A stretch of 36,230 nucleotides of DNA, from IMG/VR virus record IMGVR_UViG_3300017527_000946, positions 1 through 36,230 of that record; one strand, 5' to 3'. Source of the stretch: a virus. Below, in pieces: positions 672-23,739 of this stretch; position 1 is the stretch's first letter; each line of letters begins with the position of its first letter. The notes under the pieces are model-generated. The model did not search any database and had not been told where the DNA came from. It worked only from the letters and a program-made list of their open reading frames with translations. Made by a program: the position numbers and the translations under genes.

Positions 672-938
672 ATGAAATTTGCAAAATACTTAGAGGAAGA
701 AAGAACGTCCGGTAAGGTAAAACGTGCCATACTTGGATCAATAAAGGACCCTAAGAAAGATGTAATCAAATTTGATAGCGGTGAGATTTTAGTTGTCCCA
801 CGGCCACCGGCCGGCGTGACATTTACATTCAATCCAGATGAACATGAATTGGCAATGACAATAACCGATTTAGTTGATAATCTGGGTGGGTATAAAATAA
901 AACCATCTAAGAAAGGATTAACAATTACACCGGAATAA
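672..938 (+). CDS. Small putative capsid-targeted protein, 88 aa
   Basis: The product starts with MKFAKYLEE|E, matching the short form of the N-terminal tag shared by many small genes here; the L-E-E would be the prohead-protease site. A good ribosome binding site (aaggag) lies upstream. The rest is a small, probably beta-rich domain with KFDSGEILVVPRPPAGVTF in the middle and a Lys-rich C terminus. I do not recognise a family. It sits between the kinase-like gene and the two ADP-ribosyltransferase-like genes, which suggests joint expression and perhaps joint packaging with them. The packaging role is inferred from the tag alone. Confidence 0.75.
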   Translation: MKFAKYLEEERTSGKVKRAILGSIKDPKKDVIKFDSGEILVVPRPPAGVTFTFNPDEHELAMTITDLVDNLGGYKIKPSKKGLTITPE

Positions 939-940
939 CA

Positions 941-1891
941 ATGAGATTAGAAAAATTCATAAATGAAGGCCATAAGGCAATAAGAATATCAGGAACACTT
1001 GAGGAAAGAGTTTTTGAAATCTCAGTATTACTTTTCAAAAACTGTAAACAATATCTCAAGGACTTGAAAGGCACAAGTGATGTTTTATACCGTGGGGCCA
1101 GGGGTGGAGAAATAACACTGATCACACCAAGATTGGATAGAGAACCTAAAGATATGTCATATGAGCTTCAAGAACTACTTGATGATGCATTTTATGATAA
1201 ATTCAAATGGAGACCAAGAACTGAAGGTGTATTCTGTAGTGGAAGATATGACCAAGCAGCAGCATATGGAAGTTCTGTATATACAGTTTGGCCAATAGGT
1301 AAATATGATTTTGTTTATTCGGATCGTATTCATGATCTATACACATCAACGGAAAATTTGAATACCAAAGTTGCATACGGAGAAGATGAATGGTATGATG
1401 AATTTGAAGAAGAATATAATGATGATTATGGTGAAGATGGAGATTATGGTACATGGTACTGGAATGACACAGACACCGGAGAAAATGTAAAAAGTCATGC
1501 TATTGATGTGGTTGCCGACTGGGAAAGAGAAGCCCAAGAATTTGAAACTGAAGAAGAAGAAGAAAACTTTGACCCGTTTGATTATTTAGATGAAGATGAT
1601 TTGGAGTGGGTTCCAGAAGAAGAAAAAGAAGATTGGATAAATAACAAAATAGAAGATAGAAAGTATGAAATAGAAGATGAAGTCAGAGATGTAGTTAGTG
1701 ATTTCTCAGATGATAATATCCAAAAAGCAATCAGAAGCCGCAATGAGGTCATGCTTTCGTGTAAATCATATTATCTTATAAGTGATAATCTTACTAATGA
1801 TATCATGGAACGAATACAAATGGGGCCACCAAGTTCAACGCAAAAACAATTGAAGTTCCAATTTGCTTACAAGAAAAGGCGGAGAAAATGA
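941..1891 (+). CDS. ADP-ribosyltransferase-like protein with capsid-targeting tag, paralogue 1
   Basis: The 316-aa product starts with MRLEKFINE|G, a strong match to the T4 capsid-targeting sequence with its I-x-E cleavage site. Behind it are the three landmarks of R-S-E ADP-ribosyltransferases: VLYRG (48-52) for the first-strand Arg, GVFCSG (96-101) in place of the S-T-S motif, followed by A..YG and VWPI, and NEVML (268-272) for the catalytic Glu strand. In T4 Alt the matching places read ITLYRS, FVSTS and NEMEVIL. The residue two before the Glu is Arg here, not Glu or Gln, so activity or specificity may differ. Residues 150-245 form a very acidic insertion and the C terminus is basic (KKRRRK). 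It overlaps the next gene by ATGA. Function as an injected ART is inferred from tag plus motifs; confidence in the fold is moderate. Confidence 0.65.
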   Translation: MRLEKFINEGHKAIRISGTLEERVFEISVLLFKNCKQYLKDLKGTSDVLYRGARGGEITLITPRLDREPKDMSYELQELLDDAFYDKFKWRPRTEGVFCSGRYDQAAAYGSSVYTVWPIGKYDFVYSDRIHDLYTSTENLNTKVAYGEDEWYDEFEEEYNDDYGEDGDYGTWYWNDTDTGENVKSHAIDVVADWEREAQEFETEEEEENFDPFDYLDEDDLEWVPEEEKEDWINNKIEDRKYEIEDEVRDVVSDFSDDNIQKAIRSRNEVMLSCKSYYLISDNLTNDIMERIQMGPPSSTQKQLKFQFAYKKRRRK

Positions 1892-2826
1892 GATTAGAAA
1901 AATTCATAAATGAGGGAAGACATACACCAATAAGTTTATTTGGCCTCGAAAGAGAAGATAAGATTAAAAAAATGGCTAATATTCTTTTTCATGATTGTAA
2001 ACCTTATCTCAAAGATTTGAGAAAATCAGGTAAGGTTATGTACCGTGGGGCTTACGGCGGAGATATGACTAAAATCATTCCACGTAAAAACAGACAACCC
2101 AAAGATATGGATCAAGCCCTTTCAGATGAACTTGATGATGCTTTCATGTCTCATGTTGGTTGGAAACCAAGAAGCGAAGGTGTTTTTTGTTCCGGTGATT
2201 ATGAACAAGCTAAGGGATATGGTGACGCTGTTTTTACCGTTTGGCCAATAGATAAATATAAATTTGTATGGAGCTGGTCAATTTGGGATTTATATACAAA
2301 AATGGATAGCTATGGTGATGATGATTACATCGAAACTGATTGGATGTACGAAGACTGGGAAGAAAATTATGGTGAAAACTCAGATGGTGGTTCATGGTAC
2401 TATGAAGGTGATGACACTGAAGAATCCGATAAGGATGATGCTGAAGCCAAAGTTGCAGGTTGGATAATAGACGACCAGGATTTTGAAAGTGATGAAGAAA
2501 AAGAAGATTTCGACCCTTATGATGAAATGGTAGACCTTGACTGGGAACCAAATGTATCAGAGGAAGATTATATAGAAGATGCCATTGCAGACGAAAAAGA
2601 ACGCCAGTTGGAAAACCGATATGAAGTTGTCTTTGACTATGAATCAACAAACATAATCAAAGCAATTGATAGCAATAATGAAATAATGGTTGGATGTAAA
2701 GCATATTACATAATTGATAATGAATACACTAAAGAATTGGTAGAACTGTTGAAAATAGGAAAGATAAAACCAGCACACAAACAATTGAAATTTCAATTTG
2801 CCTACAAAAAGAGAAGAAAAAGCTAA
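1888..2826 (+). CDS. ADP-ribosyltransferase-like protein with capsid-targeting tag, paralogue 2
   Basis: A 312-aa paralogue of the preceding gene with the same tag (MRLEKFINE|G); the first 26 bases of the two genes are identical. It keeps MYRG (51-54), GVFCSG (98-103) followed by A..YG and VWPI, and NEIMV (264-268), so all three ART landmarks are present. The residue two before the putative catalytic Glu is Asn. The acidic central insertion (about 140-240) has diverged strongly while the C-terminal KQLKFQFAYKKRRK is nearly unchanged. Two tandem copies recall the Alt/ModA/ModB set of T4, which modifies host RNA polymerase and ribosomal proteins, but the target here is unknown. Its stop codon overlaps the stop of the convergent uvsW gene. 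Confidence 0.65.
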   Translation: MRLEKFINEGRHTPISLFGLEREDKIKKMANILFHDCKPYLKDLRKSGKVMYRGAYGGDMTKIIPRKNRQPKDMDQALSDELDDAFMSHVGWKPRSEGVFCSGDYEQAKGYGDAVFTVWPIDKYKFVWSWSIWDLYTKMDSYGDDDYIETDWMYEDWEENYGENSDGGSWYYEGDDTEESDKDDAEAKVAGWIIDDQDFESDEEKEDFDPYDEMVDLDWEPNVSEEDYIEDAIADEKERQLENRYEVVFDYESTNIIKAIDSNNEIMVGCKAYYIIDNEYTKELVELLKIGKIKPAHKQLKFQFAYKKRRKS

Positions 2827-4244
2827 TCAAATGAAATCTCAGTACCTTCATGGTACACATGCTCATTGATTTCAAAACCCTCCGAATCATAGTGACGCAA
2901 TCTAATGTCACCATATTTTTCAAAGAATTTTATGTGATCGTGGATGTCAAATATTTGTGCCCCGCTGGCCTTGTCGGCGTGTTTACGCAATGCCCTTCCA
3001 ATCGACTGTAAAATCCGTATTTTCGCTTTGAACGGCGAGGCCAAAATTATATTCTTTAGGTTAGGAATATTCACACCCATCTGAAAAATACCATATGTTG
3101 CGATTAGAGCAATATCCTTTCTATTCATACACTCTTTTCTCCACCTTTCACGAACATCAACTTTATCCTTACCGGATAGAAACACAACCTCTTTATTGAT
3201 ACCTTTCAAGTAATCCTTTAAGAAATCACCCTCTTTCTCAACTTTATCAACCAATATCAATACATTGTGGTCAAGGTCTTCAATTAATGTTTTTATCAAC
3301 TTCAACCGGAAAGAATTCTGAAATATACTATCTCTCAACTCATGGTAATCACCTTTCCATTTGTCTCTGTACTCAATGTTCATCATATGGATAACTGCCT
3401 TACTTATGAAGCCTTGCTCTGCAAGTAAGCCGGATGAATATTCTCTAATGATGGGACCAAGGTACGCTTTGGTATTCCAGTTGTTTAGTTCATCGGAATG
3501 CATTGTGCCGGTGAAACCTAATCTGTACTTAGCTTTCTTGGCTTTCTGTAAAATCTTCTTTATTTCTACGGACTTAGATTGATGTGTTTCATCCACAATT
3601 ATACAATCATGTACCAGTTTTTTGTGGTTCCGTGAGAGCGATTGCCATGTAGAAATCGTAATCGGGCGATCCCACTGTTTGCGCTCTGCAAAAACCATGC
3701 CAATATTATCAGGTTCAAAACCATAATCAATCAAATCCTGCATAAATTGAGCGATCAATGCTGTGGTCGGTACTATAATTATACATTTTTGTATAATACC
3801 GGCATCAAGTAGGTTTTTGATTATGTAAGCAATAACAAGTGACTTACCTGATGCTGTAGCTGACCTGATTATACCCTTAGAGTGCTGCAACGCTGCCTCT
3901 ATACAATCCTTTTGATAATCCCGTGGCTTGAGCTTCAAATCGTACTTGATGTCAAATTTTTCACCTTTAAATAGGGCTTTGACTTCCGGTGTCACGGTAA
4001 GTGGTTCTCGTGGGAACATTTTCTTGTGCATCCTGATATAATCCATGAGGATACCATAAGGAAATGTACCTCTGAATTTATCAATCATACTAACCTTACC
4101 GTTCCATACGCCTGATTTATATTGAGGCATGAACATGAACCCTGGAACAGGCCGGGTAAATTCGGTTATCATCATTTCAAGGTAGTCTACATCATCAGTA
4201 TCAATTTGTAGTGTTATGTTGTCAAATAGTTTTATTGTTGTCAA
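2823..4244 (-). CDS. uvsW: UvsW-like recombination helicase
   Basis: This 473-aa superfamily 2 helicase matches T4 UvsW in length (503 aa) and layout. The N-terminal domain (1-90) has the GFMFMPQYKSGVWNGK pattern of UvsW before the motor. Walker A is SATASGKS (128-135), the DExH box is DETH (218-221), motif III is GFTGT (243-247) and motif VI is QSIGRALRK (413-421). In T4 UvsW unwinds branched DNA and R-loops and shifts replication from origins to recombination. The start is TTG at 4244, overlapping the uvsY stop as TTGA. This start is chosen because alignment to UvsW begins there and the next Met lies inside the first domain. Translation is probably coupled to uvsY. Confidence 0.93.
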   Translation of the reverse strand: MTTIKLFDNITLQIDTDDVDYLEMMITEFTRPVPGFMFMPQYKSGVWNGKVSMIDKFRGTFPYGILMDYIRMHKKMFPREPLTVTPEVKALFKGEKFDIKYDLKLKPRDYQKDCIEAALQHSKGIIRSATASGKSLVIAYIIKNLLDAGIIQKCIIIVPTTALIAQFMQDLIDYGFEPDNIGMVFAERKQWDRPITISTWQSLSRNHKKLVHDCIIVDETHQSKSVEIKKILQKAKKAKYRLGFTGTMHSDELNNWNTKAYLGPIIREYSSGLLAEQGFISKAVIHMMNIEYRDKWKGDYHELRDSIFQNSFRLKLIKTLIEDLDHNVLILVDKVEKEGDFLKDYLKGINKEVVFLSGKDKVDVRERWRKECMNRKDIALIATYGIFQMGVNIPNLKNIILASPFKAKIRILQSIGRALRKHADKASGAQIFDIHDHIKFFEKYGDIRLRHYDSEGFEINEHVYHEGTEISFD

Positions 4245-4651
4245 TATCCTTGTTTAAGCGTATCCATGAACACTTTCATACTCCAATTTTGCTTCTCGAA
4301 GCCTCTCCAACATGTTTCAAAAAAACGAACTCTTATCTCCTGCCTGTGTAATATTTTTTTCATTCTCAAAATCCGGCGATCACCAGGGATACAAAACTTT
4401 TCTATCTCTGGTTTCGTCCATTCATTAGTGTCCTCAAATCTGTAAAATTTATATCTGATACCTATGAGTTTATCCATGAGGTCGGTGAGATGTTCAAATC
4501 TGGATAGTTCTTTGTGGTAAAAATCCTTGTATTTCATTATTTGGGAAGGGTTTTCTTTTAGCTTCTCTTGAAAATTCAATTCATTGAATTTAACCATTTC
4601 CTCTATCGGATGTTCTTCATTTAGCTTTTCAAACAGTTCTTCATTTGTCAT
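4241..4651 (-). CDS. uvsY: UvsY-like recombination mediator
   Basis: The 136-aa product has the length of T4 UvsY (137 aa) and lies next to uvsW, as in T4. The central pattern of a Lys/Tyr-rich helix (IGIRYKFYRF), then IPGDRRILRMKK and a C-terminal amphipathic helix with RVRFFETCWRGFEKQNW matches the UvsY order Y..K..Y, I..D..I, FF...L..I...GF..K. UvsY loads UvsX recombinase on gp32-covered ssDNA. The product is rich in charged residues and helical. A TGGTATAAT extended -10 element lies only about 9 nt before the ATG (4660-4668) and there is no clear Shine-Dalgarno, so the transcript may be nearly leaderless. No uvsX is present in the window. Confidence 0.8.
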   Translation of the reverse strand: MTNEELFEKLNEEHPIEEMVKFNELNFQEKLKENPSQIMKYKDFYHKELSRFEHLTDLMDKLIGIRYKFYRFEDTNEWTKPEIEKFCIPGDRRILRMKKILHRQEIRVRFFETCWRGFEKQNWSMKVFMDTLKQGY

Positions 4652-4687
4652 AGAGTACCATTATACCATATTTTTAGAGATTTGTTG

Positions 4688-4716: not shown

Positions 4717-4723
4717 ATTTATA

Positions 4724-4731: not shown

Positions 4732-4752
4732 GACTATGAAAGGAGCAATTCG

Positions 4753-5088
4753 GTGAAATTGTTTGTTATTATTAAAGAAAAAGGCAAGCTGTGTAATTTT
4801 TACACTGGTCTGATTACTTGTGAACTCAAGTGGCACACTGGAGGAATTGAAACTTGTTCTGTTCTCCAATATTCACAATATGAAAGAATTGGGAGATATA
4901 CTGCCAAAGAACCAAATAAATTCAAAACAATCAAAGATAGTGTTTATGAATTCTTTCCCGGAATAGATATCAAAGAAAGAAATATTTTTATCACAAGAAT
5001 GTTAAAACTTACATGTTCGAGCCAAATGTGGGTGCATGAAAAAAGTACATTCTTCAATGGAGAAAAAGTTGACAGAAAGGTTAAATGA
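4753..5088 (+). CDS. Hypothetical protein, 111 aa, first gene of the replication operon
   Basis: It starts with GTG at 4753, chosen because an AGGAG ribosome binding site lies at 4741-4745. The sequence opens with a beta-strand-like KLFVIIKEKGKLCNFYTG, then a Cys- and aromatic-containing middle with ELKWHTGGIE and ETCSVLQYSQYERIGRY. No known motif is recognised. It is directly behind a sigma70 and a late promoter, and its 3' end overlaps the start of the helicase gene by about 50 nt. Position suggests a role around replication or its timing, but nothing in the sequence proves this. Confidence 0.75.
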   Translation: MKLFVIIKEKGKLCNFYTGLITCELKWHTGGIETCSVLQYSQYERIGRYTAKEPNKFKTIKDSVYEFFPGIDIKERNIFITRMLKLTCSSQMWVHEKSTFFNGEKVDRKVK

Positions 5089-7139: not shown

Positions 7140-7145
7140 ATATAA

Positions 7146-9787: not shown

Positions 9788-10279
9788 ATGGAAAGTCAAT
9801 ACAGATTTGAGTTTGAAGATTGGCAGGAAGTCGAAAACATTATCAATAAAAAATTGACTGGTATCAAAAAATATGGAAAAGATATCATGACAGATTTTCT
9901 CAAAGCTGTCTATGAAGCAGGAGTTGATGCTGGAGAAATTACCGGATACAAATCCGCTTTGAATGAAAACGGACTTGAAGACACTGGTGAAGTCAGAGAT
10001 GAAGGTTATCAAGCCGGTTTTGATGATGGTTATGATGAAGGCAAAGAAAATGGTTATGAATCAGGTTTTGAAGAAGGCGAAGAAAGAGGATATGATAACG
10101 GAAAAAATGACGGTTGGAATGAAGGCCATGAACAAGGTGTAGAAGAAGGCAGAAATGATGGGTATGATGATGGCAGAAATGATGGGTATGATGATGGGTA
10201 TGATGAAGGTTTAGAAGCCGGTCATGATGATGGTTATGGAAAAGGTTTTGAGGATGGTGTTGATTCAGTTGAAAATTAA
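9788..10279 (+). CDS. Acidic protein with 21 consecutive GX3 tetrapeptide repeats
   Basis: The 163-aa product has a helical, mixed-charge N-terminal part (1-70). From Gly73 to Gly157 a Gly occurs at every fourth residue, giving 21 repeats of the form aromatic/charged-x-D/E-Gly (for example GYDDGRNDGYDDGYDEG). The DNA repeats too, including two copies of a 24-nt unit near 10148-10195. GX3 repeats of this kind occur in the Yae1/Lto1 family and in FliH-type proteins, where they pack helices tightly, but the number here is large. A strong GGAGG overlaps the end of gene 43. It is not tagged for the capsid. Function is unknown. Confidence 0.85.
   Translation: MESQYRFEFEDWQEVENIINKKLTGIKKYGKDIMTDFLKAVYEAGVDAGEITGYKSALNENGLEDTGEVRDEGYQAGFDDGYDEGKENGYESGFEEGEERGYDNGKNDGWNEGHEQGVEEGRNDGYDDGRNDGYDDGYDEGLEAGHDDGYGKGFEDGVDSVEN
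10148..10203 (+). repeat. Short tandem repeats inside the GX3-repeat gene
   Basis: The unit GGCAGAAATGATGGGTATGA is present twice in direct order 24 nt apart, followed by a partial copy. It encodes GRNDGYDD and lies in frame, so it marks recent expansion of the GX3 array by slippage or recombination. Confidence 0.7.
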
Positions 10280-11058: not shown

Positions 11059-11301
11059 TTACTTCCATTTGATGTTTTTGATACCATGTTCTTCAAACCA
11101 TTTGTCAATTTCTTTTTTTAGCAGTGCAGAGGTTGCTGATTCAACTTCACCATATTCGTCTTTAATTTCACCATAATACAAACCACCTGCTCCCTTATCC
11201 TGACCCATTCTGACTTTTTTCTTACCTGATTTACCTGTCCATTCTGATTTACCCTTTATAATCTCAATCAAATAATTATCTAATTTTTCTAAAATATTCA
11301 T
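11059..11301 (-). CDS. Small putative capsid-targeted protein, 80 aa
   Basis: The N terminus MNILEKLDNYLIE|I is the long form of the shared tag, with L-I-E as the candidate cleavage site. It is nearly the same as the tag of the 79-aa gene at 22238 on the other strand, whose bodies otherwise differ. The remaining 65 residues include a basic KSGKKKVRMGQDKGAGG stretch and end in a Trp- and Lys-rich FEEHGIKNIKWK. No family is recognised. It is the last gene of the leftward late block and converges with the lysozyme gene, leaving only two bases between their stops. Confidence 0.75.
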   Translation of the reverse strand: MNILEKLDNYLIEIIKGKSEWTGKSGKKKVRMGQDKGAGGLYYGEIKDEYGEVESATSALLKKEIDKWFEEHGIKNIKWK

Positions 11302-11312
11302 TTTATCTCCAT

Positions 11313-11792
11313 TTAACTTACACTATCAGCAAAACGTGCTGCTACTTCTTTTGCCTGTGCATCAGTTTTTATTGTAAAATCAGGTTCATATTTACCATTG
11401 TCCCAATCGGTTTCTCCGTTTGAGAACTTAGGATAATCAACTTTCTTACCACCACTATCACCGGTCACTTTATCACCGGCTTTGAAACCATAAACTGCCC
11501 TGTGAGACCAGCCGTACCATTTCCCATCAGCACCTTTGCCAAGATTATTTTTACCGGCATCTGTTTCTATTTCTAACCAATCTTTAAATTTAACTTGAGG
11601 TTTACCATCGGCATATTTTGGTTGATTATCAAATGTTCGGTCCTTTGGTGCAATGTCAGTTGACATGAACCTTTGCCGTTTAAAATTCTTCTCACGGTTG
11701 GTTTTAGGATTTACCTTTCTATATTTCTCAGGCTTTGCCATACGAACTTGATAACCTTTACCATCACCTTCAACAAATTTCTTTAACCTCAT
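11313..11792 (-). CDS. Putative capsid-targeted protein, 159 aa
   Basis: It starts with MRLKKFVE|G, a weaker version of the short tag (F-V-E instead of I-x-E). AAGGAG lies 9 nt before the ATG. The body is basic and rich in Gly, Asp, Trp and Lys. WYGWSHRAVYGFKAGD in the centre and AQAKEVAARFADSVS at the end look like a compact alpha/beta domain of the kind seen in small phage proteins, but I cannot assign a family. It lies between two other tagged genes in the leftward block, which supports a role as head cargo. Confidence 0.7.
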   Translation of the reverse strand: MRLKKFVEGDGKGYQVRMAKPEKYRKVNPKTNREKNFKRQRFMSTDIAPKDRTFDNQPKYADGKPQVKFKDWLEIETDAGKNNLGKGADGKWYGWSHRAVYGFKAGDKVTGDSGGKKVDYPKFSNGETDWDNGKYEPDFTIKTDAQAKEVAARFADSVS

Positions 11793-11798
11793 AGATGT

Positions 11799-12059
11799 TT
11801 ACTCCTTCATTCTGTCTTTGATAGCTGTTTGAACTGGTTTAGGTAAAGATGTAACTTTTACTGTTTTACCCAAATGTGGTCCAATTCTGATATCTTTTCC
11901 AACATTACCGGCCCATTGATTGAAGCCTTGAGCTGATGTTGGATTTTCTGACATACCGAAAACATCATCTCCAATAATCACGGTGTATCTATCCATCGTT
12001 TCACCACCATTATCATAAACAGTGACTTTCGCTTCTGTTATATAGTCTCTGAAACTCAT
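11799..12059 (-). CDS. Putative capsid-targeted protein with widespread small phage domain, 86 aa
   Basis: MSFRDYITE|A is one of the clearest copies of the short tag (I-T-E, then Ala, as in T4 internal proteins). The rest, TVYDNGGETMDRYTVII with GFNQWAG and a terminal helix KPVQTAIKDRM, resembles from memory a small domain found in many phages and bacteria, usually without such a leader. Its function is unknown. Here the tag seems to have been added to a stand-alone domain. The ATG overlaps the upstream stop as TAATG, so translation is coupled. Confidence 0.78.
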   Translation of the reverse strand: MSFRDYITEAKVTVYDNGGETMDRYTVIIGDDVFGMSENPTSAQGFNQWAGNVGKDIRIGPHLGKTVKVTSLPKPVQTAIKDRMKE

Positions 12060-17203: not shown

Positions 17204-17536
17204 TTATTTTTTCGGTAACTTTTCTTTGAATTTTTTCTTCTTTACATCTGTCTTTACTTCTTTCTTTGTTTTGCCTTTGCCACGCCACATCGGACTGCCA
17301 TGAGCAGCATCTTTGATTGATGCACAAAAGCCGGAGGCTTTTTCTTTATCGAAGCCTTCTTTGCCTTCCATTCTGGCTACACAAGCATCAAAGAAACCTT
17401 TCTCTTTTGGGCCCTTACCAACGGTCTTGCCAAATTTTGAGATAGATTTTTGCGTCCAGCCCTTTGCTCCGATAGGAGCCTCAGATAAATATTCTTCTAT
17501 CAATTCATCTTCTATTAGGTGTCTTTCAAATCTCAT
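17204..17536 (-). CDS. Basic putative capsid-targeted protein with extended leader, 110 aa
   Basis: The leader MRFERHLIEDELIEEYLSE|A is longer than most and contains two possible sites (L-I-E at 7-9 and L-S-E at 17-19), the second followed by Ala as in T4 cargo. The body has a Cys pair in GFFDACVARMEG and GFCASIKDAAHGSP, from memory a small domain seen in many phage genomes, and a very Lys-rich tail (KGKTKKEVKTDVKKKKFKEK) suited to binding DNA. It overlaps the zinc-ribbon gene upstream by ATGA. A role as packaged DNA-bound protein is inferred. Confidence 0.75.
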   Translation of the reverse strand: MRFERHLIEDELIEEYLSEAPIGAKGWTQKSISKFGKTVGKGPKEKGFFDACVARMEGKEGFDKEKASGFCASIKDAAHGSPMWRGKGKTKKEVKTDVKKKKFKEKLPKK

Positions 17537-17700
17537 TTTTTGTCTCTCATTTTAATCAATTCTTTGTGTTTTGTTTTATCAAAACAATCGCTACATAACC
17601 ATGAGCGGTATCCCTCATAGTATTTGGTATCACTCTTGCCACATACTTCACATTTCTCTTTTTTTGCTTCACCTAAATATTTTTCAATCAATTTTTTCAT
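17533..17700 (-). CDS. Mini zinc-ribbon protein with capsid-targeting tag, 55 aa
   Basis: This short gene reads MKKLIEKYLGE|A followed directly by a zinc-ribbon: CEVC (residues 17-20) and CSDC (37-40), 16 residues apart, then a basic end (KHKELIKMRDKK). The L-G-E/Ala junction fits the prohead-protease signature. A GGTGGG ribosome binding site precedes the ATG. A late promoter (17775-17782) lies about 75 nt upstream. Its stop overlaps the start of the next gene as ATGA. After leader removal a zinc-binding peptide of about 44 aa would remain in the head. It could bind DNA or a host protein. Confidence 0.8.
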   Translation of the reverse strand: MKKLIEKYLGEAKKEKCEVCGKSDTKYYEGYRSWLCSDCFDKTKHKELIKMRDKK

Positions 17701-17774
17701 TTTATCCCACCATAAATTCTTTCAAATTATTTATTTGTAGTTTATATCCTGTGTTCTCAATCTGAGTTTTTATA

Positions 17775-17782
17775 TATTTATA
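17775..17782 (-). promoter_or_regulatory. T4-type late promoter (TATAAATA)
   Basis: An exact late octamer read leftward in the 90-nt gap between two tagged genes. It would start transcription about 70 nt before the zinc-ribbon gene and feed the leftward fibre block. Confidence 0.55.
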
Positions 17783-17790
17783 AGTATGCA

Positions 17791-18102
17791 TTATCCAACT
17801 ATTTGGTCAACGGTATTTACAAGCTGTTCAACAAACACGCCTTTGACTGTTTGCTTTACAGTATATTCCATTTTTCTAACTGTTCCAAATTCGATATCGT
17901 ATGTATCCCTTTTATTTAGTTTTATTATTACCTTACCACGGAACTTTGAACCTCTAACATCAAATGTTAGGCTATTCTTAGATGAAACATAGTTCTTTGC
18001 ACCCCATGATGCTAACGCCCATTTATCCAAAGCATTTATCTGGCTCATTATAATTTTGCTCACTCGTTCATTTGCTTCTGTTATGTAATTTTTAAAACCC
18101 AT
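17791..18102 (-). CDS. Putative capsid-targeted protein, 103 aa
   Basis: Two adjacent ATGs are possible. The second (18102) is preferred because the GAGG is better placed and the leader then reads MGFKNYITE|A, the same length as MSFRDYITE|A. The body has WALASWGAKNYVSS, then a beta series RGSKFRGKVIIKLNKRDTYD and VKGVFVEQLV, which looks like a compact alpha/beta domain that I have seen in other phages but cannot name. It lies in the leftward late unit starting at 19066. The tag and late expression suggest a head-internal protein. Confidence 0.75.
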   Translation of the reverse strand: MGFKNYITEANERVSKIIMSQINALDKWALASWGAKNYVSSKNSLTFDVRGSKFRGKVIIKLNKRDTYDIEFGTVRKMEYTVKQTVKGVFVEQLVNTVDQIVG

Positions 18103-18140
18103 CATATCCTCATTTTGTATTTTTACTCTCTGTCTGTTAG

Positions 18141-18389
18141 TTACATACCCTTTCCATAATGTATTGTGTTCAATGTTTTTCTTAATTTCTCAAGTTCCGA
18201 GATAGTTTTCTGTGCTAATTTTACTCTTTTTTTTGCTTGCCTTAAAAATGGACTTGCAGGATTGACTTTTATTCCTTTTAGTTTTTCAATCATTTCATCT
18301 ATATATTTTCCATGATTGCTAATAGGGCCGGCTCCGGTTATGAACTTTGGTAAACCAATTGCTTCTTTCATATATTCTCTTAATGCCAT
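18141..18389 (-). CDS. Small putative capsid-targeted protein, 82 aa
   Basis: It starts MALREYMKE|A, a slightly divergent short tag (M-K-E instead of I/L-x-E). The remainder is helical and strongly basic (MIEKLKGIKVNP, FLRQAKKRVKLAQKTISELEKL), consistent with a DNA-binding helix bundle packed with the genome. The ATG overlaps the upstream stop as TAATG. No family recognised; the cleavage site is less certain than for its neighbours. Confidence 0.7.
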   Translation of the reverse strand: MALREYMKEAIGLPKFITGAGPISNHGKYIDEMIEKLKGIKVNPASPFLRQAKKRVKLAQKTISELEKLRKTLNTIHYGKGM

Positions 18390-18721: not shown

Positions 18722-19026
18722 TATTCATCTCCACCAAAGTCAGTTATCATTTCCACTTTCGTTTCTAAATTACTGATTTTTCCATTATTATCTGCCGTTA
18801 CTCCACCTATTCCAATTAGACCAATAATAATAAAACCGAGTAACCAATAAAATAGCTTAGATGAAACAAATTTATGTGATTGATCCAACAAACATTTCTG
18901 TTGCCCCTCTATTTTTTCTAAAATGGCATCATGAGCTTTTATATTAGCAGCAGCAGCATTTTCCTGATTTTTACACATGTCGGTCATTTTCTGGTCGAGT
19001 TTTGTCAAAAGGTCGTGATCATTCAT
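18721..19026 (-). CDS. Single-span membrane protein with coiled coils, 101 aa
   Basis: The start at 19026 is chosen because the alternative in-frame GTG at 19062 coincides with the expected late transcription start, and GAGAGGG lies upstream of 19026. Residues 1-50 form a coiled coil (LLTKLDQKMTDM, AHDAILEKIEGQQ). Residues 57-77 are a membrane span (KLFYWLLGFIIIGLIGIGG) and 82-101 a second short helix. Topology of this type occurs in holins and spanin-like or injection proteins. As the first gene of the leftward late unit it could be a lysis or tail-related membrane protein. I cannot choose between these. No capsid tag. Confidence 0.7.
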   Translation of the reverse strand: MNDHDLLTKLDQKMTDMCKNQENAAAANIKAHDAILEKIEGQQKCLLDQSHKFVSSKLFYWLLGFIIIGLIGIGGVTADNNGKISNLETKVEMITDFGGDE

Positions 19027-19065
19027 TTTAGTAAACCCTCTCTTTTTTATATTGTTTATCACCTA

Positions 19066-19073
19066 TATTTATA
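19066..19073 (-). promoter_or_regulatory. T4-type late promoter (TATAAATA), leftward
   Basis: Exact octamer 40 nt before the ATG of the membrane-protein gene. Together with the rightward copy at 19091 it forms a divergent late promoter pair whose elements are only 17 nt apart. Confidence 0.75.
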
Positions 19074-19090
19074 TTATTTGCGTGAGAAAA

Positions 19091-19098
19091 TATAAATA
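19091..19098 (+). promoter_or_regulatory. T4-type late promoter (TATAAATA), rightward
   Basis: Exact octamer, followed by AAGGAG and the ATG at 19128. It excludes the in-frame ATG at 19098, which lies in the promoter itself. It is the only exact rightward late octamer I found for the 17-kb block to its right. Confidence 0.75.
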
Positions 19099-19127
19099 TG
19101 ATTGAAGGTTTCTATAAGGAGAATTAT

Positions 19128-19508
19128 ATGTCAGGCATAAAATATGAAAATCGGTCTGTTTTTGAAAAATATCAGAATTTAATTCTAAACGAATCGAAAA
19201 AAGGTATGAGAAGAAAAGCTCAGATAATTGAGGATAAAATAGATGATTTTGTAGATGAAATAGAAAAAAAGATTGATAAAATAGAGGACAATCCTACATT
19301 TCAAACACAAATGTATCAGATGCTTGCCGATATGAATAAGGAACATGCCGAGTTCATAATGGCCATGAAAACGATTTGTGCTACCCTTGACAGTGGCGCA
19401 AAAGTAATACCAAAAACAAAGCCAGTTGCTAAGGGAAACAAAGTTGGTGAGCAAGAACCTGGAATAGAAGAAGAACCAGCAACAGAAGAACCAGCAGAGG
19501 AAGAATAA
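19128..19508 (+). CDS. Coiled-coil protein with acidic Pro/Glu tail, 126 aa
   Basis: The start at 19128 follows AAGGAG and a late promoter. The first 22 residues end in YQNLILNE|S, which may be a variant tag with L-N-E at 20-22. Residues 30-85 are a Lys/Glu/Asp-rich coiled coil (IEDKIDDFVDEIEKKIDKIE). The last 18 residues are a run of Glu, Pro and Ala (PGIEEEPATEEPAEEE). Such an architecture recalls small scaffold or prohead-core proteins of T4-like phages, but it could also be cargo. It is the first gene of the rightward late unit, so it is expected to be highly expressed. Confidence 0.7.
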   Translation: MSGIKYENRSVFEKYQNLILNESKKGMRRKAQIIEDKIDDFVDEIEKKIDKIEDNPTFQTQMYQMLADMNKEHAEFIMAMKTICATLDSGAKVIPKTKPVAKGNKVGEQEPGIEEEPATEEPAEEE

Positions 19509-19709
19509 ATGACAAGTTTAGATAAAATCAATCGGTATCTATACGAACTCTCATATAAGGATAGGTTGAATGTTTACGGTCTTACGTTTGAGGAATTGGT
19601 TGAAAAGCTGGTCCCGATGAACGAACAGGAACGCAATGGAATAATTAATCTTTTAGACCCTGACACTAAAGATAAGATAGAGGAAATGAGGAAAGGTGGG
19701 TTATTATGA
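19509..19709 (+). CDS. Small putative capsid-targeted protein, 66 aa
   Basis: MTSLDKINRYLYE|L is a long-form tag with L-Y-E. The ATG directly follows the upstream stop. The rest is an acidic-helical peptide (LTFEELVEKLVPMNEQERNGIINLLDPDTKDKIEEM) without a known domain. Its 3' end overlaps the next ATG as ATGA. At 66 aa it is among the shortest of the set, and removal of the leader would leave only about 53 residues. Confidence 0.7.
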   Translation: MTSLDKINRYLYELSYKDRLNVYGLTFEELVEKLVPMNEQERNGIINLLDPDTKDKIEEMRKGGLL

Positions 19710-19972
19710 ATATAGTTGAAAAGATTGATATATATTTGTTGGGTGAAAAGAAATCACCGGAAGAACACGCATCAGATAGATTTTGGTCATTTCAAGTGAA
19801 GGCGAAAGATGCTGACGCATTGGTAAGAATGTTAAGATTGAGAACTAAAAAAATGAACAATGTTGACAAACTGAAAGCATGGTTCAAGACACTTGAAAAT
19901 GAAAACTTTCATAGTGAAGCAGCCGAAGCATTAGATAAACTAAGAAAACTTGGATATACAGGAGCAGTATAA
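19706..19972 (+). CDS. Small putative capsid-targeted protein, 88 aa
   Basis: The leader MNIVEKIDIYLLGE|K is a typical long tag ending in L-G-E. The body is a predicted three-helix unit: an opening FWSFQVKAKDADALVRMLRL, a basic KKMNNVDKLKAWFK and a final EAAEALDKLRKLGY. No known family. It is coupled to both neighbours (ATGA before, TAATG after). The tag is nearly the same as in the next gene while the bodies differ completely. Confidence 0.75.
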   Translation: MNIVEKIDIYLLGEKKSPEEHASDRFWSFQVKAKDADALVRMLRLRTKKMNNVDKLKAWFKTLENENFHSEAAEALDKLRKLGYTGAV

Positions 19973-20304
19973 TGAAGATTTTAGATAAACTTGATATATA
20001 TTTGGATGAAGCGTGTCCGGGAGATAAAATCAAATCAAAGGGAAAAGGTAAAGGATTAGGTAAAGGCAAAGGAAAAGGCCCAATTGGTAGAATGAAAGAT
20101 GAAAATGAAGATTTGGCAGAAGCCAAAATGTCAAAAGAAGAAGCTATTGCTAAGTTCAAAAAAACAAAACAACTTTCAACTGATATTTTAGAACCATTAG
20201 GGATTTCATTTGATAGTTTTTTGCAATTTGCTCAATTATCATATAACAATCCAAAAAAGGCTGATTCTATCTTGAAACAATTGGCTAAGAAATTAGGGAT
20301 ATAG
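19972..20304 (+). CDS. Putative capsid-targeted protein with Gly-Lys-rich segment, 110 aa
   Basis: MKILDKLDIYLDE|A is a strong long tag (L-D-E then Ala). Behind it residues 20-38 are built almost only from Gly and Lys (KSKGKGKGLGKGKGKG), an unstructured polycation that should bind DNA. The C-terminal part (about 50-110) contains a helical domain (EEAIAKFKKTKQLSTDILEPL and KKADSILKQLAKKLG). The layout recalls the Lys-rich internal proteins of T4 that are packed with the genome. TAATG coupling to the upstream gene. Confidence 0.78.
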   Translation: MKILDKLDIYLDEACPGDKIKSKGKGKGLGKGKGKGPIGRMKDENEDLAEAKMSKEEAIAKFKKTKQLSTDILEPLGISFDSFLQFAQLSYNNPKKADSILKQLAKKLGI

Positions 20305-20306
20305 GA

Positions 20307-20696
20307 ATGAATGATATTTTAGAACAAATAGACGTACTCGTAATGCAACCGGATATCAAAATTCTATCCACTGACGAACTGTTTGATAAAATGGCAAATT
20401 TGATTGTAACTCTGGAAGCAGACAACCTAACAGACAGACAGCTTGCTAAAGTCCTTGAAATAATTGAGGATTTTGAAGATGCTGATGAACTCGGAGAAGA
20501 AGTCAAAGCAAAGAAAACAACCATCAATAAAAAGGCATACGCTGGAAAGTATTATAAACAAAACAAAGTCAAGATGAAGAAGAAAAAAATTGACTTAGAA
20601 AAAAGCATTGAAGGTAAAACCAGAAAGAGGATGAAACCTATTATGGCAAAAGGTAGAAAGACAGCTACCGGAAGACATAAAGTTACATATCATTAG
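20307..20696 (+). CDS. Acidic-to-basic bipartite protein, 129 aa, paralogue of 21824
   Basis: The first half is acidic and helical (LSTDELFDKMANLIVTLEAD, ATLE..., VLEIIEDFEDADELGEE). The second half is highly basic (KVKMKKKKIDLEKS, GKTRKRMKPIMAKGRKTATG). The N terminus MNDILEQIDVLV resembles the long tag but lacks a clear L/I-x-E end. It matches the 134-aa gene at 21824 in order (FDKMANLIVTLEADNLTDRQ against MDKMFDLIVSLSDENLSDEQ), so the two are paralogues. An acidic half with a polybasic tail could bridge capsid and DNA, or act in the prohead core. No family named. Confidence 0.72.
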   Translation: MNDILEQIDVLVMQPDIKILSTDELFDKMANLIVTLEADNLTDRQLAKVLEIIEDFEDADELGEEVKAKKTTINKKAYAGKYYKQNKVKMKKKKIDLEKSIEGKTRKRMKPIMAKGRKTATGRHKVTYH

Positions 20697-20704
20697 GAGA
20701 CAAA

Positions 20705-21190
20705 ATGAAACTGAAAGATTTTTTAAATGAAGAAGAAACTAAAAAACTGGGAAAAATTCACAATAAGATAAAAAAGTTCTTCCAAGAAAATCCTAATCCT
20801 TCTGATAAACAAGTTCATGAATATGCTGAATCAATTGGAATTGATGAACATAAATTTGAAGAGCATATCTATATGCTTCTTTCGGCTTATGTTAAAAAAG
20901 ATAAAGTATCAGAACAGACACAACTAAACGAAATATTTATAGAAGATGCAACAAATGATTTAGAAATACTTAGAATTTCTATGATAGCAGAACTTGATGC
21001 ATCAAATCTTTATGAAAGAATGGCAGTAACAGCAAAGAATGCAGATGTAAAAAAGGTTCTATTAGATATTTCAAATGAAGAAAAAATTCATGCTGCTGAG
21101 TTTGAAACCCTCTTAGAGGAACTTGATACGGATTATGAAGAAGCAGGAAAGGAAGGAGAAAAAGAGGTAGAGGATTTAACAGGAGAGTAA
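20705..21190 (+). CDS. Encapsulated-ferritin-like protein with capsid-targeting tag, 161 aa
   Basis: MKLKDFLNE|E is a clear short tag (L-N-E). Residues 11-66 form a small helical domain (FFQENPNPSDKQVHEYAESI, HKFEEHIYMLLSAYV). Residues 85-142 look like a two-helix ferritin-like unit of the encapsulated-ferritin type: Glu96 and Tyr103 in AELDASNLYERM, and Glu125, Glu126 and His129 in EEKIHAAEFE, matching the E-x6-Y and E-x-x-H metal ligands of EncFtn; spacing to the second helix is also right. EncFtn stores iron inside encapsulins, whose shell shares the HK97 fold with phage heads. The C terminus (EAGKEGEKEVEDLTGE) is acidic. A metal-binding or ferroxidase protein packed in a phage head is the best reading. 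The fold call rests on motif and spacing, not on a search. Confidence 0.72.
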   Translation: MKLKDFLNEEETKKLGKIHNKIKKFFQENPNPSDKQVHEYAESIGIDEHKFEEHIYMLLSAYVKKDKVSEQTQLNEIFIEDATNDLEILRISMIAELDASNLYERMAVTAKNADVKKVLLDISNEEKIHAAEFETLLEELDTDYEEAGKEGEKEVEDLTGE

Positions 21191-21191
21191 T

Positions 21192-21392
21192 ATGAAATTA
21201 GTAGATAAATATTTAGGTGAAGGATTGGACCCGGCATATTACGCAAAACAAATTCAAGCAGCTAAAGGTGATTCAAATAGATTGAGTAATTTGAAAAGTA
21301 CCATCAAAGGAATGGGCGAAGGCAGGATGCTTTCATCCGGTGATGTTAGACGTTTATGTGATATGATTGACAGGATAAGGGGTAAAAAATGA
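21192..21392 (+). CDS. Small putative capsid-targeted protein, 66 aa
   Basis: MKLVDKYLGE|G is a short-type tag with L-G-E. The remaining 56 residues are basic and helical (YYAKQIQAAKGDSNRLSNLK, MLSSGDVRRLCDMIDRIRGK), with SSGDVRRLCDMIDRIR ending the protein. No family. Its stop overlaps the start of the zinc-ribbon gene as ATGA. Confidence 0.75.
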   Translation: MKLVDKYLGEGLDPAYYAKQIQAAKGDSNRLSNLKSTIKGMGEGRMLSSGDVRRLCDMIDRIRGKK

Positions 21393-21538
21393 AATTCAGA
21401 GAATATATAATTGAAAAAACCGAATCAACACCGATGGTGTGTATTGAGTGTGGTAAGAAATTCAAGAAGAAATTAGGGCCGAAAACATTTGAGGTAAAAT
21501 GTCCCAAATGTGGAAGCTATGATACAGAGCCAGCATAA
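21389..21538 (+). CDS. Mini zinc-ribbon protein with capsid-targeting tag, 49 aa
   Basis: ATG at 21389 overlaps the upstream stop (ATGA). The product is MKFREYIIE|K, a short linker, then CIEC (residues 18-21) and CPKC (38-41), 16 residues apart, with GKKFKKKLGPKTFEVK between them. This is a zinc ribbon of the same size and spacing as the one at 17533 on the opposite strand. The I-I-E leader fits the protease signature. The mature peptide would be about 40 aa. Its coding quality is supported by exact coupling to the upstream gene and by both CxxC pairs. Confidence 0.8.
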   Translation: MKFREYIIEKTESTPMVCIECGKKFKKKLGPKTFEVKCPKCGSYDTEPA

Positions 21539-21548
21539 GGAGATGAAA

Positions 21549-21821
21549 ATGAAACTTTTAGAAAAAATAGATAAATTATTGGTGGATGTCAACCAACAGG
21601 TTACACCGGAAATAGCAGCATCTTATTCTGTTCAAGACCTATTGAATAAGTTTAGGCGTATACCAACCGATGAAATTCTCTACCGTGAAATTGAAACAAG
21701 AGGGCTACAGGATGATCCAGTAGTTAGAGCGTTGAAACTTGGTGGAAAATCTGGTGATGTTTCTTGGGACACCGGAGAAATTGATGATTTTGATAATCCA
21801 GAAGATAGCATGGGAGTGTAA
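21549..21821 (+). CDS. Small putative capsid-targeted protein, 90 aa
   Basis: The start at 21549 is chosen over in-frame ATGs at 21510 and 21543, because AAGGAG (21537-21542) is 6 nt from it and the product then begins MKLLEKIDKLLVD|V, a long-form tag with L-V-D instead of L-x-E. The body includes SVQDLLNKFRRIPTDEILYR and an acidic, Gly-rich C terminus (DTGEIDDFDNPEDSMGV). No family recognised. Asp at the cleavage position would be a conservative variant. Confidence 0.7.
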   Translation: MKLLEKIDKLLVDVNQQVTPEIAASYSVQDLLNKFRRIPTDEILYREIETRGLQDDPVVRALKLGGKSGDVSWDTGEIDDFDNPEDSMGV

Positions 21822-21823
21822 TA

Positions 21824-22228
21824 ATGGATTTAACTAAAATTGACAGGCTTCTAATTGAAGATGATATTGATATTGATGAAGAAGTCATGGATAAAATGTT
21901 TGATTTGATAGTAAGTCTTAGTGATGAAAACCTATCAGACGAACAGGCCGAGAAGATAAGTGAAATTATTGACATGGTTGATCCTGATGAAGAAGTATCA
22001 GAAGTTTTCAAGAAAAGAGTAAAAAGAGATTTACAAGCAGCCAGGAAGCGAAGACGTGAATATCGTTCAAAGCGATCCAAAATGAGACTGAAAGCGAAAA
22101 GATATAGAAGGTCAGCATCCGGTAAAATGACTTTACGGAAAGCCAAGAGATTCAAAAAGTTTGGGAAAACATCTACAATGAAAAGACAGAGGAAGTTTGT
22201 TGGGCCTAAATTATCAAAGTTGAAATAG
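21824..22228 (+). CDS. Acidic-to-basic bipartite capsid-targeted protein, 134 aa
   Basis: The leader MDLTKIDRLLIE|D fits the long tag (L-I-E). Residues 13-60 are acidic and helical (DIDIDEEVMDKMFDLIVSLS, SEIIDMVDPDEEVSEVF). From residue 63 the protein is dominated by Arg and Lys (KRDLQAARKRRREYRSKRSK, MRLKAKRYRRSASGKM). It is a paralogue of the gene at 20307. The basic half should bind DNA or RNA; the acidic half may face the scaffold or other proteins. This suits a genome-condensing internal protein or prohead-core component, as in T4 gp67/gp68-type cores. The latter link is speculative. Confidence 0.75.
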   Translation: MDLTKIDRLLIEDDIDIDEEVMDKMFDLIVSLSDENLSDEQAEKISEIIDMVDPDEEVSEVFKKRVKRDLQAARKRRREYRSKRSKMRLKAKRYRRSASGKMTLRKAKRFKKFGKTSTMKRQRKFVGPKLSKLK

Positions 22229-22237
22229 GAAAAGGAA

Positions 22238-22477
22238 ATGAACATCTTAGAGAAGATTGACAATTACTTAGAAGAAAAATGGGCTAAGAAAGTCGAAATT
22301 CATAGTACAGGTGAACACGCCGGTAAATCAAAGGTCAAGCTCAAAAAGGAAATAGCAGCCTTACGTGGTAAATCAGGTAATAAAGAAAAAATGGGTGAAC
22401 TCCTTTTTGCATTGAGAGCTAAACAAGGTTGGAAAAAAGGCAAAGGTGCAACAGGACTAAGTAAAACCAAAAAATAA
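22238..22477 (+). CDS. Small Lys-rich putative capsid-targeted protein, 79 aa
   Basis: MNILEKIDNYLEE|K is the type copy of the long tag and differs by two or three residues from that of the leftward gene at 11059. The body is basic with VEIHSTGEHAGKSKVKLKKE, ALRGKSGNKEKMGELLFALR and GWKKGKGATGLSKTKK. It should bind DNA. It overlaps the start of the gp4-like gene as TAATG, so cargo and head-completion genes are translated together. Confidence 0.75.
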   Translation: MNILEKIDNYLEEKWAKKVEIHSTGEHAGKSKVKLKKEIAALRGKSGNKEKMGELLFALRAKQGWKKGKGATGLSKTKK

Positions 22478-22941
22478 TGACAATAAAAAGTGGGTGGAAA
22501 CATAAAAAAAATGTGAGTCAGTTCATACCACGGAACTCAAAAAAATATTGTGGTAGTTATCCTATTATTATTAGAAGTTCTTGGGAACGGATGTTTTGTC
22601 AATGGTTGGATATGACACCTTCTATTATTGAGTGGTCAAGTGAAAATATACATATAAATTATTACGATCCAATTCAAGGAAGAACAAGAAGATATTATCC
22701 AGATTTCTACATGTTGGTTTTGGAACCAGATGGAAAGTATGGAAAATATATTGTAGAAATAAAACCTGCCAAAGAGACAAAACCTCCAAGAAAGACCGGT
22801 AAGAAATCCAATAAAACATTACGGCATCAGCAAGCCACCTATATAACAAATCAGGCGAAGTTTGAGGCTGCCGAAGGATATTGTAAAAAAATAGGAATGG
22901 AATTTAAAATTATCACAGAAAAAGAGCTGTTCAACAAATAG
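22477..22941 (+). CDS. 4: Head completion protein, T4 gp4 type (nuclease fold)
   Basis: At 154 aa it matches T4 gp4 (150 aa). Signature pieces in order are the IIRSSWERMF segment (31-40), IIEWSSENIHINYYDP (50-65), RRYYPDFYM (71-79) and VEIKPAKE (93-100), with Asp76 and Glu94/Lys96 forming a PD-(D/E)xK-type site. Gp4 acts at the end of DNA packaging, with gp50/65, and its loss gives heads that cannot join tails. It lies inside the cluster of putative head-cargo genes, which strengthens the idea that these are head proteins. No tag. Confidence 0.88.
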   Translation: MTIKSGWKHKKNVSQFIPRNSKKYCGSYPIIIRSSWERMFCQWLDMTPSIIEWSSENIHINYYDPIQGRTRRYYPDFYMLVLEPDGKYGKYIVEIKPAKETKPPRKTGKKSNKTLRHQQATYITNQAKFEAAEGYCKKIGMEFKIITEKELFNK

Positions 22942-22952
22942 GAGATAGTACC

Positions 22953-23258
22953 ATGAACATAACAGAGAAAATTGATAAAGCATTAAACGAAGATGATATT
23001 TTTTGGGATATGGTTGATAAAGATGAATTTAGAAGTCTCCAGAAAGCCCTTAAAAATGATGATCAATCAAATAAACTTTTCAATGATGTTTGTAAATATT
23101 TTTTCAGGAAGTTTCAATTAAAAGGCGGAGATGAAAGAGCGTTCAATAGATTAATGAACCTTCTTCATTCAAAATCAAGAGATGAAGGTAATCTCAGAAA
23201 TCAGATTTTTAAGATTGCTAATGAATTAGGAATGAAGCTACCTTCAAGTATGTTTTAA
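22953..23258 (+). CDS. Small putative capsid-targeted protein, 101 aa
   Basis: MNITEKIDKALNE|D carries the long tag with L-N-E. The body is all-helical with aromatic residues (DIFWDMVDKDEFRSLQKAL, LFNDVCKYFFRKFQ, RAFNRLMNLLHSK) and a Met/Phe-ending C terminus. No known family. It lies between the gp4-like gene and the ParB-like gene, separated by 11 and 1 nt. Confidence 0.72.
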   Translation: MNITEKIDKALNEDDIFWDMVDKDEFRSLQKALKNDDQSNKLFNDVCKYFFRKFQLKGGDERAFNRLMNLLHSKSRDEGNLRNQIFKIANELGMKLPSSMF

Positions 23259-23259
23259 A

Positions 23260-23739
23260 ATGAGACTAAATCAATATATCACAGAGAAATGGGTATTCCC
23301 TGATAACAAAACTCTCAAAGCAGATTTCAGCGAATACAAACACAAAGAAGATTACAAATGGAAAGGGCGGGCGGAACAAATTGGTGCCCGCTTTCCTATA
23401 TTTGCTGATTTTGATGATTTCAAAAACAGATTGAAAAAAGCCAGAGTTGTCAATCTAACTCCGTCAGTTGATAATCAAATTACAAACAGAAGTCATACGA
23501 GTAGCATTGAAAGTTTGAAGTCACTCGTTGGATCATATTCAAGACCTCGTGACGTGGATAGAATAGTTCAAGGAATAATGGGTGATGAAAAACTACCATT
23601 TCCAATTGTTTTGAAAGGTTCAAGAGGCATGTGGATTATGGCAGGAAATACAAGATTAGATACGGCATTTTTGTTAGGCAACAAACCAAAGGTGTTGATG
23701 GTGGATGTATCAAATGAGTATGGAAATGGATTCAATTAA
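23260..23739 (+). CDS. ParB/Srx-fold protein with capsid-targeting tag, 159 aa
   Basis: The tag is MRLNQYITE|K (I-T-E). The C-terminal half has the ParB/sulfiredoxin-fold core: PFPIVLKGSRGMWIMAGNTR (113-132) and LLGNKPKVLMVDV, with AGNTRL in the place of the nucleotide-binding GxxR motif of ParB-type proteins. These bind CTP or act as nucleases or phosphohydrolases. The N-terminal half (10-70) has a basic helix region. If packaged, it may be injected with DNA or act during packaging. Activity is unproven. It overlaps the next gene as TAATG. Confidence 0.7.
   Translation: MRLNQYITEKWVFPDNKTLKADFSEYKHKEDYKWKGRAEQIGARFPIFADFDDFKNRLKKARVVNLTPSVDNQITNRSHTSSIESLKSLVGSYSRPRDVDRIVQGIMGDEKLPFPIVLKGSRGMWIMAGNTRLDTAFLLGNKPKVLMVDVSNEYGNGFN

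Follow-up and report, generated by a model that had tools for sequence, protein, structure and literature searches.

In bacteriophage T4, mutants of the internal protein IPIII, whose leader reads MKTYQEFIAE, have assigned residues 4 and 7 to capsid targeting and residues 8 and 10 to processing, and Asp at P1, the residue preceding the cut, stops cutting with targeting unaffected (PMC9026906). Tags resembling this capsid-targeting sequence (CTS) occur on variable small proteins of the internal protein (IP) locus of T-even phages (Repoila et al. 1994, as cited in PMC9026906), and Ip1-3 inhibit distinct GmrSD enzymes (PMC12373910). The present analysis deals with leaders of this kind in an uncultivated virus, IMG/VR record IMGVR_UViG_3300017527_000946, whose entire contig (36,230 bases, 35% GC), a piece of a larger phage, is called here the window. 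Many of its small proteins begin with one of two related N-terminal leaders, a short and a long form. In all likelihood these are propeptides of the T4 capsid-targeting type, to judge from sequence comparison, and the phage very probably loads its head with an exceptionally large assortment of enzymes and counter-defence proteins, which it injects along with its DNA.

The register of the leader was fixed from the T4 IPIII genetics alone, without use of window sequences, as a hydrophobic residue at E-6, an aromatic or aliphatic residue at E-3, L/I/M/F/V at E-2 and Glu as P1 at residues 8-14; a looser motif, [LI]xE alone, was dropped as too permissive. Chance expectation was taken from shuffled N-termini (1000 rounds) and from internal protein segments. 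The motif is matched by 17 of the 53 window proteins, compared with a mean of 1.18 in the shuffles (maximum 6 in 1000) and 0.68 predicted from internal segments. The excess recurs in three related contigs, with 33 matches in 247 proteins of G1 (3.2-3.3 expected), 27 in 311 of G2 (4.2-4.5) and 10 in 141 of G3 (2.0-2.2); counts outside the window are approximate, since a simple custom gene caller was used there. Moreover, the same tags are present in many relatives, and a position weight matrix (PWM) trained on G1 and G2 only, with the window held out, recovers the window set, placing 16 leaders below the cut-off of p_shuffle <0.005. The next rank is occupied by 4241-4651, a conserved replication-region gene and probable false positive, followed by two weaker leaders (genes 21824 and 17204, named by their first coordinate). 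That the similarity might be an artefact of chance or composition in a lysine/glutamate-rich, AT-rich genome has next to no probability: the motif is short, and 2-7 chance matches arise per phage genome, but counts are much lower in shuffled N-termini, in internal segments, with other residues at P1 and in eight other phage genomes, so that this explanation is refuted statistically.

The leader similarity in the window is thus beyond chance, as the original prediction had held (17/53 against 0.7-1.2 expected). All the leaders which it listed exist at the starts of open reading frames (ORFs), most of which have a good Shine-Dalgarno site. They occur on either strand and form three blocks, the tagged spans running over 3-2826 (+), 11059-12059 and 17204-18389 (-), and 19128-23739 (+). 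Its figure of about 25 tagged proteins is fair when degenerate leaders are counted, but only about 16 are strict. The motif match at 4753 (MKLFVIIKEKG) is probably due to chance; about seven further leaders are degenerate (11313, 17204, 19706, 20307, 21549, 22953 and possibly 19128), and adding these and the single protein whose start is lost at the contig edge brings the total to about 24. The cargo, described as unrelated, is so for most members, with the exception of the paralogues 941 and 1888 and of the related pair 20307 and 21824. Both forms of the leader fit one register, as in MRLEKFINE (L3, F6, I7, E9) and MNILEKIDNYLEE (I7, Y10, L11, E13), which share the spacing of the targeting and processing residues of T4 IPIII.

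The chemistry of the leaders is that of a peptide signal with the character of a cleavage site. When P1 was scanned with the rest of the motif fixed, in the window and the three relatives, Glu was found 88 times against 10.2 expected and Asp 17 times against 12.2, other residues reaching at most about 2.6-fold. Three columns which had not been used for selection are also biased: residue 2 is basic in 49/55 leaders (165/665 controls), P2 is N or T in 30/55 (74/665), and P1' is A, G or S in 21/55 (103/665). The consensus of 106 leaders, with the predicted cut marked by an arrow, reads [RK][LF][KE][KN][YF][LI][NT]E↓[AKGS]. In nine orthologue pairs the four key leader columns are 97% conservative, the other leader columns 49% and the bodies 54% identical. 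A translation-start element acting in the mRNA would suit the position of every leader at a start codon and a nucleotide identity slightly above that of random synonymous codons (0.60-0.63 against 0.55-0.58). It is nevertheless hardly credible, given that upstream sequences differ, that conservation tracks residue chemistry, and that codons are free at the conserved residues (GAA or GAG for E; TTA, TTG, CTA or CTT for L). The signal therefore lies in the peptide and, by these measures, the leaders are probably selected as a cleavable one.

A set of head genes is found in the relative G1, a contig of 161.6 kb whose DNA polymerase is 56% identical to that of the window. G1 carries gp20, gp21, gp22, gp23 and gp17, and its gp21 matches Peptidase_S77 (E 9e-29) with the motifs GELxHP and SSRGxGS retained. 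The gp21-type protease gene, whose detection elsewhere in the genome the original prediction had named as a check, is absent from the window contig but present in this relative. By-eye readings give a propeptide of the G1 major capsid protein with VLNE↓G inside and ..WLQE↓ATTYAYPND at its end (compare SFLTE↓A in T4), LDE↓A and LEE↓A in gp22, and MKLITE at the start of gp21. The 19-24 kb block of the window is syntenic with G1 113.9-109.7 kb, directly upstream of the G1 portal and gp21 genes, and the gp21-gp22 interval of G1 holds a further three small genes, of which one has a strict leader and the other two have degenerate ones. Late-promoter motifs of the T4 type (TATAAATA) lie upstream of head and tail genes in G1, and two tagged blocks of the window are headed by a divergent pair of them at 19,073/19,091. 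No Peptidase_S77 was detected in the window, G2, G3 or the shorter contigs, and G2 and G3 are silent on this point because tblastn found no match there to any G1 head gene.

A peptide address for some other destination or step (membrane, tail or neck, replication or assembly compartment, late-infection complex), left uncut, would account for the tagged genes which adjoin replication and tail-fibre genes and for homologues of the Thoeris inhibitor Tad6, which retain the hydrophobic half of the leader and lose the Glu. This is considered unlikely, since the selection of Glu over Asp at P1, with A/S/G enriched next to it, fits a cleavage site and not a docking helix alone, the register is identical to that of a proven capsid-targeting sequence, and in G1 the tagged genes are adjacent to those for portal, gp21, gp22 and gp23. 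The T4-type capsid-targeting reading put forward originally is supported by the same register, by the Glu selectivity and by the gp21 gene in the head module of the relative, beside the syntenic block. According to this reading, the cargo would be made late in infection, each protein with an amphipathic N-terminal helix of 9-13 residues whose hydrophobic face (E-6, E-3) would dock it into the prohead core. A cut after the P1 Glu (P3 = L/I) by a gp21-type prohead protease would then release the mature protein in the head, ahead of DNA packaging. The cargo would pass into the next host along with the DNA. Some tagged proteins may act in head assembly rather than being injected.

Several points weigh against this reading. 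The leader is degenerate in some of the proteins; several of the bodies are short, with no fold assigned, and some may have a remote common ancestry. Neither a head protease nor a capsid gene is present in the 36 kb window, both being taken from G1 at the polymerase distance given above. Furthermore, most Tad6 homologues (about 30 contigs, L129-L160) keep M..FK.[FY] and drop the Glu, so that this cargo may escape cutting, or may have an N-terminus that is no tag at all.

The same body may carry a short leader, a long leader or none, which makes the tags exchangeable as far as the available contigs indicate. The zinc ribbon 21389 has MKFREYIIE in the window and MDLVEKYLEE↓A in L012, and the body of 20307, with a degenerate long leader in the window, has the short-form MKFRDWLIDEE in its G1 orthologue G1_112092 (66% identity over 68 residues). 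Ferritin domains of other contigs follow MKLKNYLNE, MGKFKNYLVE, MSKFKDYITE, MVNFKDYLTE, MGILDRIEKYMVE or no leader, and the body of 23260 is found with the tag, without it, and joined in G2 to the ADP-ribosyltransferase (ART) family described below. The addition of tags to ready-made domains, which had been proposed, agrees with these findings: recognisable domains are tagged, and the two leader forms interchange on one body. One old paralogous family, with bodies diverged past recognition and a shared N-terminus reflecting ancestry instead of a transferable tag, could be read from the two related pairs and from the many short bodies without assigned fold. It is very improbable, as the bodies have clearly different folds and the exchanges of leader affect ferritin, zinc ribbon, 20307/G1_112092 and the 23260 homologues alike. 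The capsid-targeting tag would then be a general loading address moved, in this clade, onto two to three dozen ready-made domains, with roles that are probably in host takeover, counter-defence and head chemistry.

Among the cargo, the family of 941 and 1888 has conserved R, Y-G and E columns. An AlphaFold2 model of a short member finds ART folds in nearly all of the 31 matches listed, with Z up to 5.9 (Arr 5.3, DarT 3.8, diphtheria toxin 3.2, PARP-1 3.1, KptA 2.9; all Z <8), and no Foldseek match at E <=0.001. An earlier model of the long form, with an acidic insert, yielded nothing useful in Foldseek, and its VIA rows were weak; the short member resolved the fold better. The T4 protein Alt is a packaged ART.

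The ferritin-like protein 20705-21190 is closest to the encapsulin-associated ferritin of Pyrococcus furiosus; the match (E 7.6e-16) spans residues 86-160, and the ExxH motif is present as EEKIH. No encapsulin shell operon or shell fusion was found for it, the window having no encapsulin gene and a head-closure gene nearby, and its one weak match among isolated phages, in Motura, lies outside the ferritin domain. As a separate observation, ferritin-like proteins of the encapsulin type turned up repeatedly in viral contigs (L101-L128), both of this group and of others, often right after a capsid-targeting leader.

The product of 11313-11792 is, from its profile match, a homologue of the type I Thoeris inhibitor Tad6, with 62.1 bits against PF25188 (gathering cut-off 27) over profile positions 74-145, the C-terminal half only; tblastn gave no match to Tad6 in isolated phages. 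Such homologues may be packaged uncut. The leader of the Zeta-like kinase, lost at the contig edge, is intact as MRLNKYLTE↓G in the overlapping contig L001 (L001:188-904, 98% identical), and its homologue in pelagiphage HTVC008M starts MIPFILKE↓GLYDPGIFKA. Relatives carry the tag on RimK-plus-zinc-protease, NUDIX and C39 peptidase domains; in the NUDIX, C39 and kinase proteins the known domain begins directly after the leader. A tRNA nucleotidyltransferase of G2 has a weaker leader, possibly by chance. PADLOC matches on cargo proteins were weak and scattered and were not used, and a ParB-like guess for 23260-23739 was dropped because there was no solved-structure or Pfam match.

Table 1. Tagged genes and associated features of the window (↓, predicted cut).
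Feature	Position	Strand	Evidence
Zeta-toxin-like P-loop kinase, 5' end lost at contig edge	3..662	+	PF06414 E 2.5e-8
Tagged small protein, MKFAKYLEE↓E	672..938	+	motif + PWM; tagged orthologue in L007, MKLSKYLKEE
Tagged putative ART-fold protein, MRLEKFINE↓G	941..1891	+	motif + PWM; phrog_11975 E 3.7e-32; AlphaFold2 model of family member
Tagged putative ART-fold paralogue, MRLEKFINE↓G	1888..2826	+	motif; paralogy to 941; AlphaFold2 model of family member
Tagged small protein, long leader MNILEKLDNYLIE↓I	11059..11301	-	motif + PWM
Tad6 (type I Thoeris inhibitor) homologue, leader-like MRLKKFVE↓G, cleavage site degenerate	11313..11792	-	PF25188 E 8e-17
Tagged small protein, MSFRDYITE↓A	11799..12059	-	motif + PWM
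Probable tagged protein, weak leader MRFERHLIE↓DELIEEYLSE↓A	17204..17536	-	PWM p 0.011; homologues in L005, G3
Tagged zinc-ribbon-like protein (CxxC pairs), MKKLIEKYLGE↓A	17533..17700	-	motif + PWM
Tagged protein, MGFKNYITE↓A	17791..18102	-	top PWM score; tagged orthologues in L005, G1, G2
Tagged protein, MALREYMKE↓A	18141..18389	-	motif + PWM
Divergent T4-type late-promoter motif pair TATAAATA	19073..19098	19073 -, 19091 +	between two tagged blocks
Tagged protein, long leader MTSLDKINRYLYE↓L	19509..19709	+	motif + PWM; G1 orthologue 112855
Probable tagged protein, long leader MNIVEKIDIYLLGE↓K, register off by one	19706..19972	+	PWM p 0.05; orthologues L002, G1
Tagged protein, long leader MKILDKLDIYLDE↓A	19972..20304	+	motif + PWM
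Body with degenerate long leader (MNDILEQIDVLVMQ)	20307..20696	+	orthologue of C-terminal half: G1_112092
Tagged encapsulin-type ferritin-like protein, MKLKDFLNE↓E	20705..21190	+	PDB PFC_05175 E 7.6e-16; 2e0z E 2.4e-14; PF02915 E 1.3e-8
Tagged protein, MKLVDKYLGE↓G	21192..21392	+	motif + PWM
Tagged zinc-ribbon-like protein, MKFREYIIE↓K	21389..21538	+	PWM; same body in L012
Probable tagged protein, long leader MKLLEKIDKLLVD, Asp at P1	21549..21821	+	PWM p 0.09
Tagged protein, long leader MDLTKIDRLLIE↓D	21824..22228	+	register match; PWM p 0.009
Tagged protein, long leader MNILEKIDNYLEE↓K	22238..22477	+	motif + PWM
Head closure (gp4-like, nuclease) protein, untagged, within tagged block	22477..22941	+	phrog_218 E 2.4e-47; PF08722 E 6e-22
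Tagged protein, long leader MNITEKIDKALNE↓D	22953..23258	+	PWM p 0.005
Tagged protein, MRLNQYITE↓K	23260..23739	+	PWM; fused to ART-family domain in G2; some homologues untagged

Besides these features, the window encodes a UvsW-type helicase, a DnaB-type helicase, a uracil-DNA glycosylase, tail-fibre proteins and a family-B DNA polymerase (about 31% identity with cyanophage gp43), with many small genes interspersed. A membrane-anchored SLT transglycosylase (10331-11056) adjoins the polymerase gene and is conserved in relatives; between the two lies 9788-10279, with many G-x3-type repeats (GYDDGYDEG...), a Pfam Yae1_N match and orthologues in L002 and G1. Three 200-residue paralogues are flanked by a pair of very large, related genes of tail-fibre-like character (24694-29802, 1702 amino acids; 31801-36228, at least 1476 amino acids).

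In isolated phages the motif is far less abundant. T4 has 9 matches against 3.3-3.9 expected, including ipII, ipIII, Alt and gp24; the corresponding values are 6 (2.0-2.7) for cyanophage KJ019059, 9 (6.5-6.9) for RaK2, 5 (4.5-4.8) for KVP40, 6 (3.5-3.8) for Cr30, 4 (2.0-2.4) for HTVC008M, 4 (3.0-3.1) for PaBG and 3 (2.3-3.5) for Motura. The excess over expectation is 0-6 in these eight phages, compared with about 16 in the window, about 30 in G1 and about 23 in G2. A further 63 short loci around ferritin or Tad6 homologues, some of them overlapping, hold 82 matches in 564 genes, and the expansion therefore belongs to a wide uncultivated clade. Separately, T4 gp61.1 (18966-19130), annotated as hypothetical, was seen to start with a CTS-like leader, MKTFKEFIKE.

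A different leader was found in Achromobacter phage Motura (L066, NC_049849.1), in which 13 of 326 proteins match M.IQA.[AV]RLxA against 0.5-0.9 expected. In all, about 14 Motura proteins, mostly encoded around the portal and head genes (record 112-145 kb), have this leader unrelated to the T4 type. Peptidase_S77 is not detectable in Motura; its capsid protein has ARMVG↓A and the neighbouring structural protein gp187 VRMLG↓A (R[LM]xG↓A). From its sequence pattern, the Motura leader looks like the same head-loading principle with another protease specificity, possibly of independent origin. No notable excess of it was seen in PaBG, T4, a cyanophage, RaK2, KVP40, Cr30, HTVC008M or the present clade. 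Taking both leaders together, we lean, if only slightly, towards the view that an uncultivated T4-like clade uses an exchangeable tag to load each head with 20-30 or more different folded enzymes, among them encapsulin-type ferritin and anti-defence proteins, which together would form a modular arsenal for injection, and that unrelated phages such as Motura have evolved an equivalent with their own protease-matched tag.

On the capsid-targeting reading, the leader would be a searchable label for head-packaged and probably injected proteins, a class otherwise invisible to annotation, and dozens of 'hypothetical' genes per genome would become candidate early-infection effectors. Moreover, such phages would supply tag variants, together with cargo already adapted to them, for use in filling phage heads with proteins, and an encapsulin-type ferritin placed in a phage head would bear on the relationship between encapsulins and phage capsids.

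As regards known systems, the literature searched (open-licence papers only) gave no report of a comparably large tagged set. The polyvalent proteins (PMC5512222), P1 DarA/DdrB and the N4 virion RNA polymerase are likewise virion-borne effectors with ART, peptidase and similar domains, but there the domains are fused in one giant chain, whereas here they are separate, mostly single-domain and under one common tag. The ejection proteins of the giant Salmonella phage SPN3US and of phiKZ (PMC5694885) also form large sets of head proteins, several of them cut by a prohead protease, but with propeptides mostly of more than 100 residues and other cleavage motifs. The cargo ferritin of encapsulins (P. 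furiosus PFC_05175, PDB 5n5e, 2e0z) has a homologous ferritin-like domain bound for the interior of an HK97-type shell; here, in contrast, the protein would be directed into a phage head by a leader at its N-terminus, probably a cleavable one. The T-even IP loci share CTS-like tags on variable small proteins and a counter-defence role, but comprise few genes at few loci, compared with dozens across the genome, with recognisable enzyme domains, in the present clade. Finally, T4 IPI-IPIII and Alt with gp21 (Mullaney and Black; PMC9026906) are alike in the N-terminal leader of 9-13 residues, the residue spacing, LxE↓(A/G/S), the small and mostly basic bodies, the presence of an ART (here a putative one) among the cargo, and gp21 itself (here in a relative). 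They differ in that about 5-6 proteins are tagged in excess of expectation in T4 and 16-30 per contig here, that the longer second leader form is found only here, and that ferritin, Tad6 homologue, kinase, RimK-protease and C39 cargo are not reported in the T4 literature searched. The T4 capsid-targeting propeptide is already known; the present case is set apart by its scale, by the wide range of ready-made domains, by a second form of the leader and by the exchange of tags.

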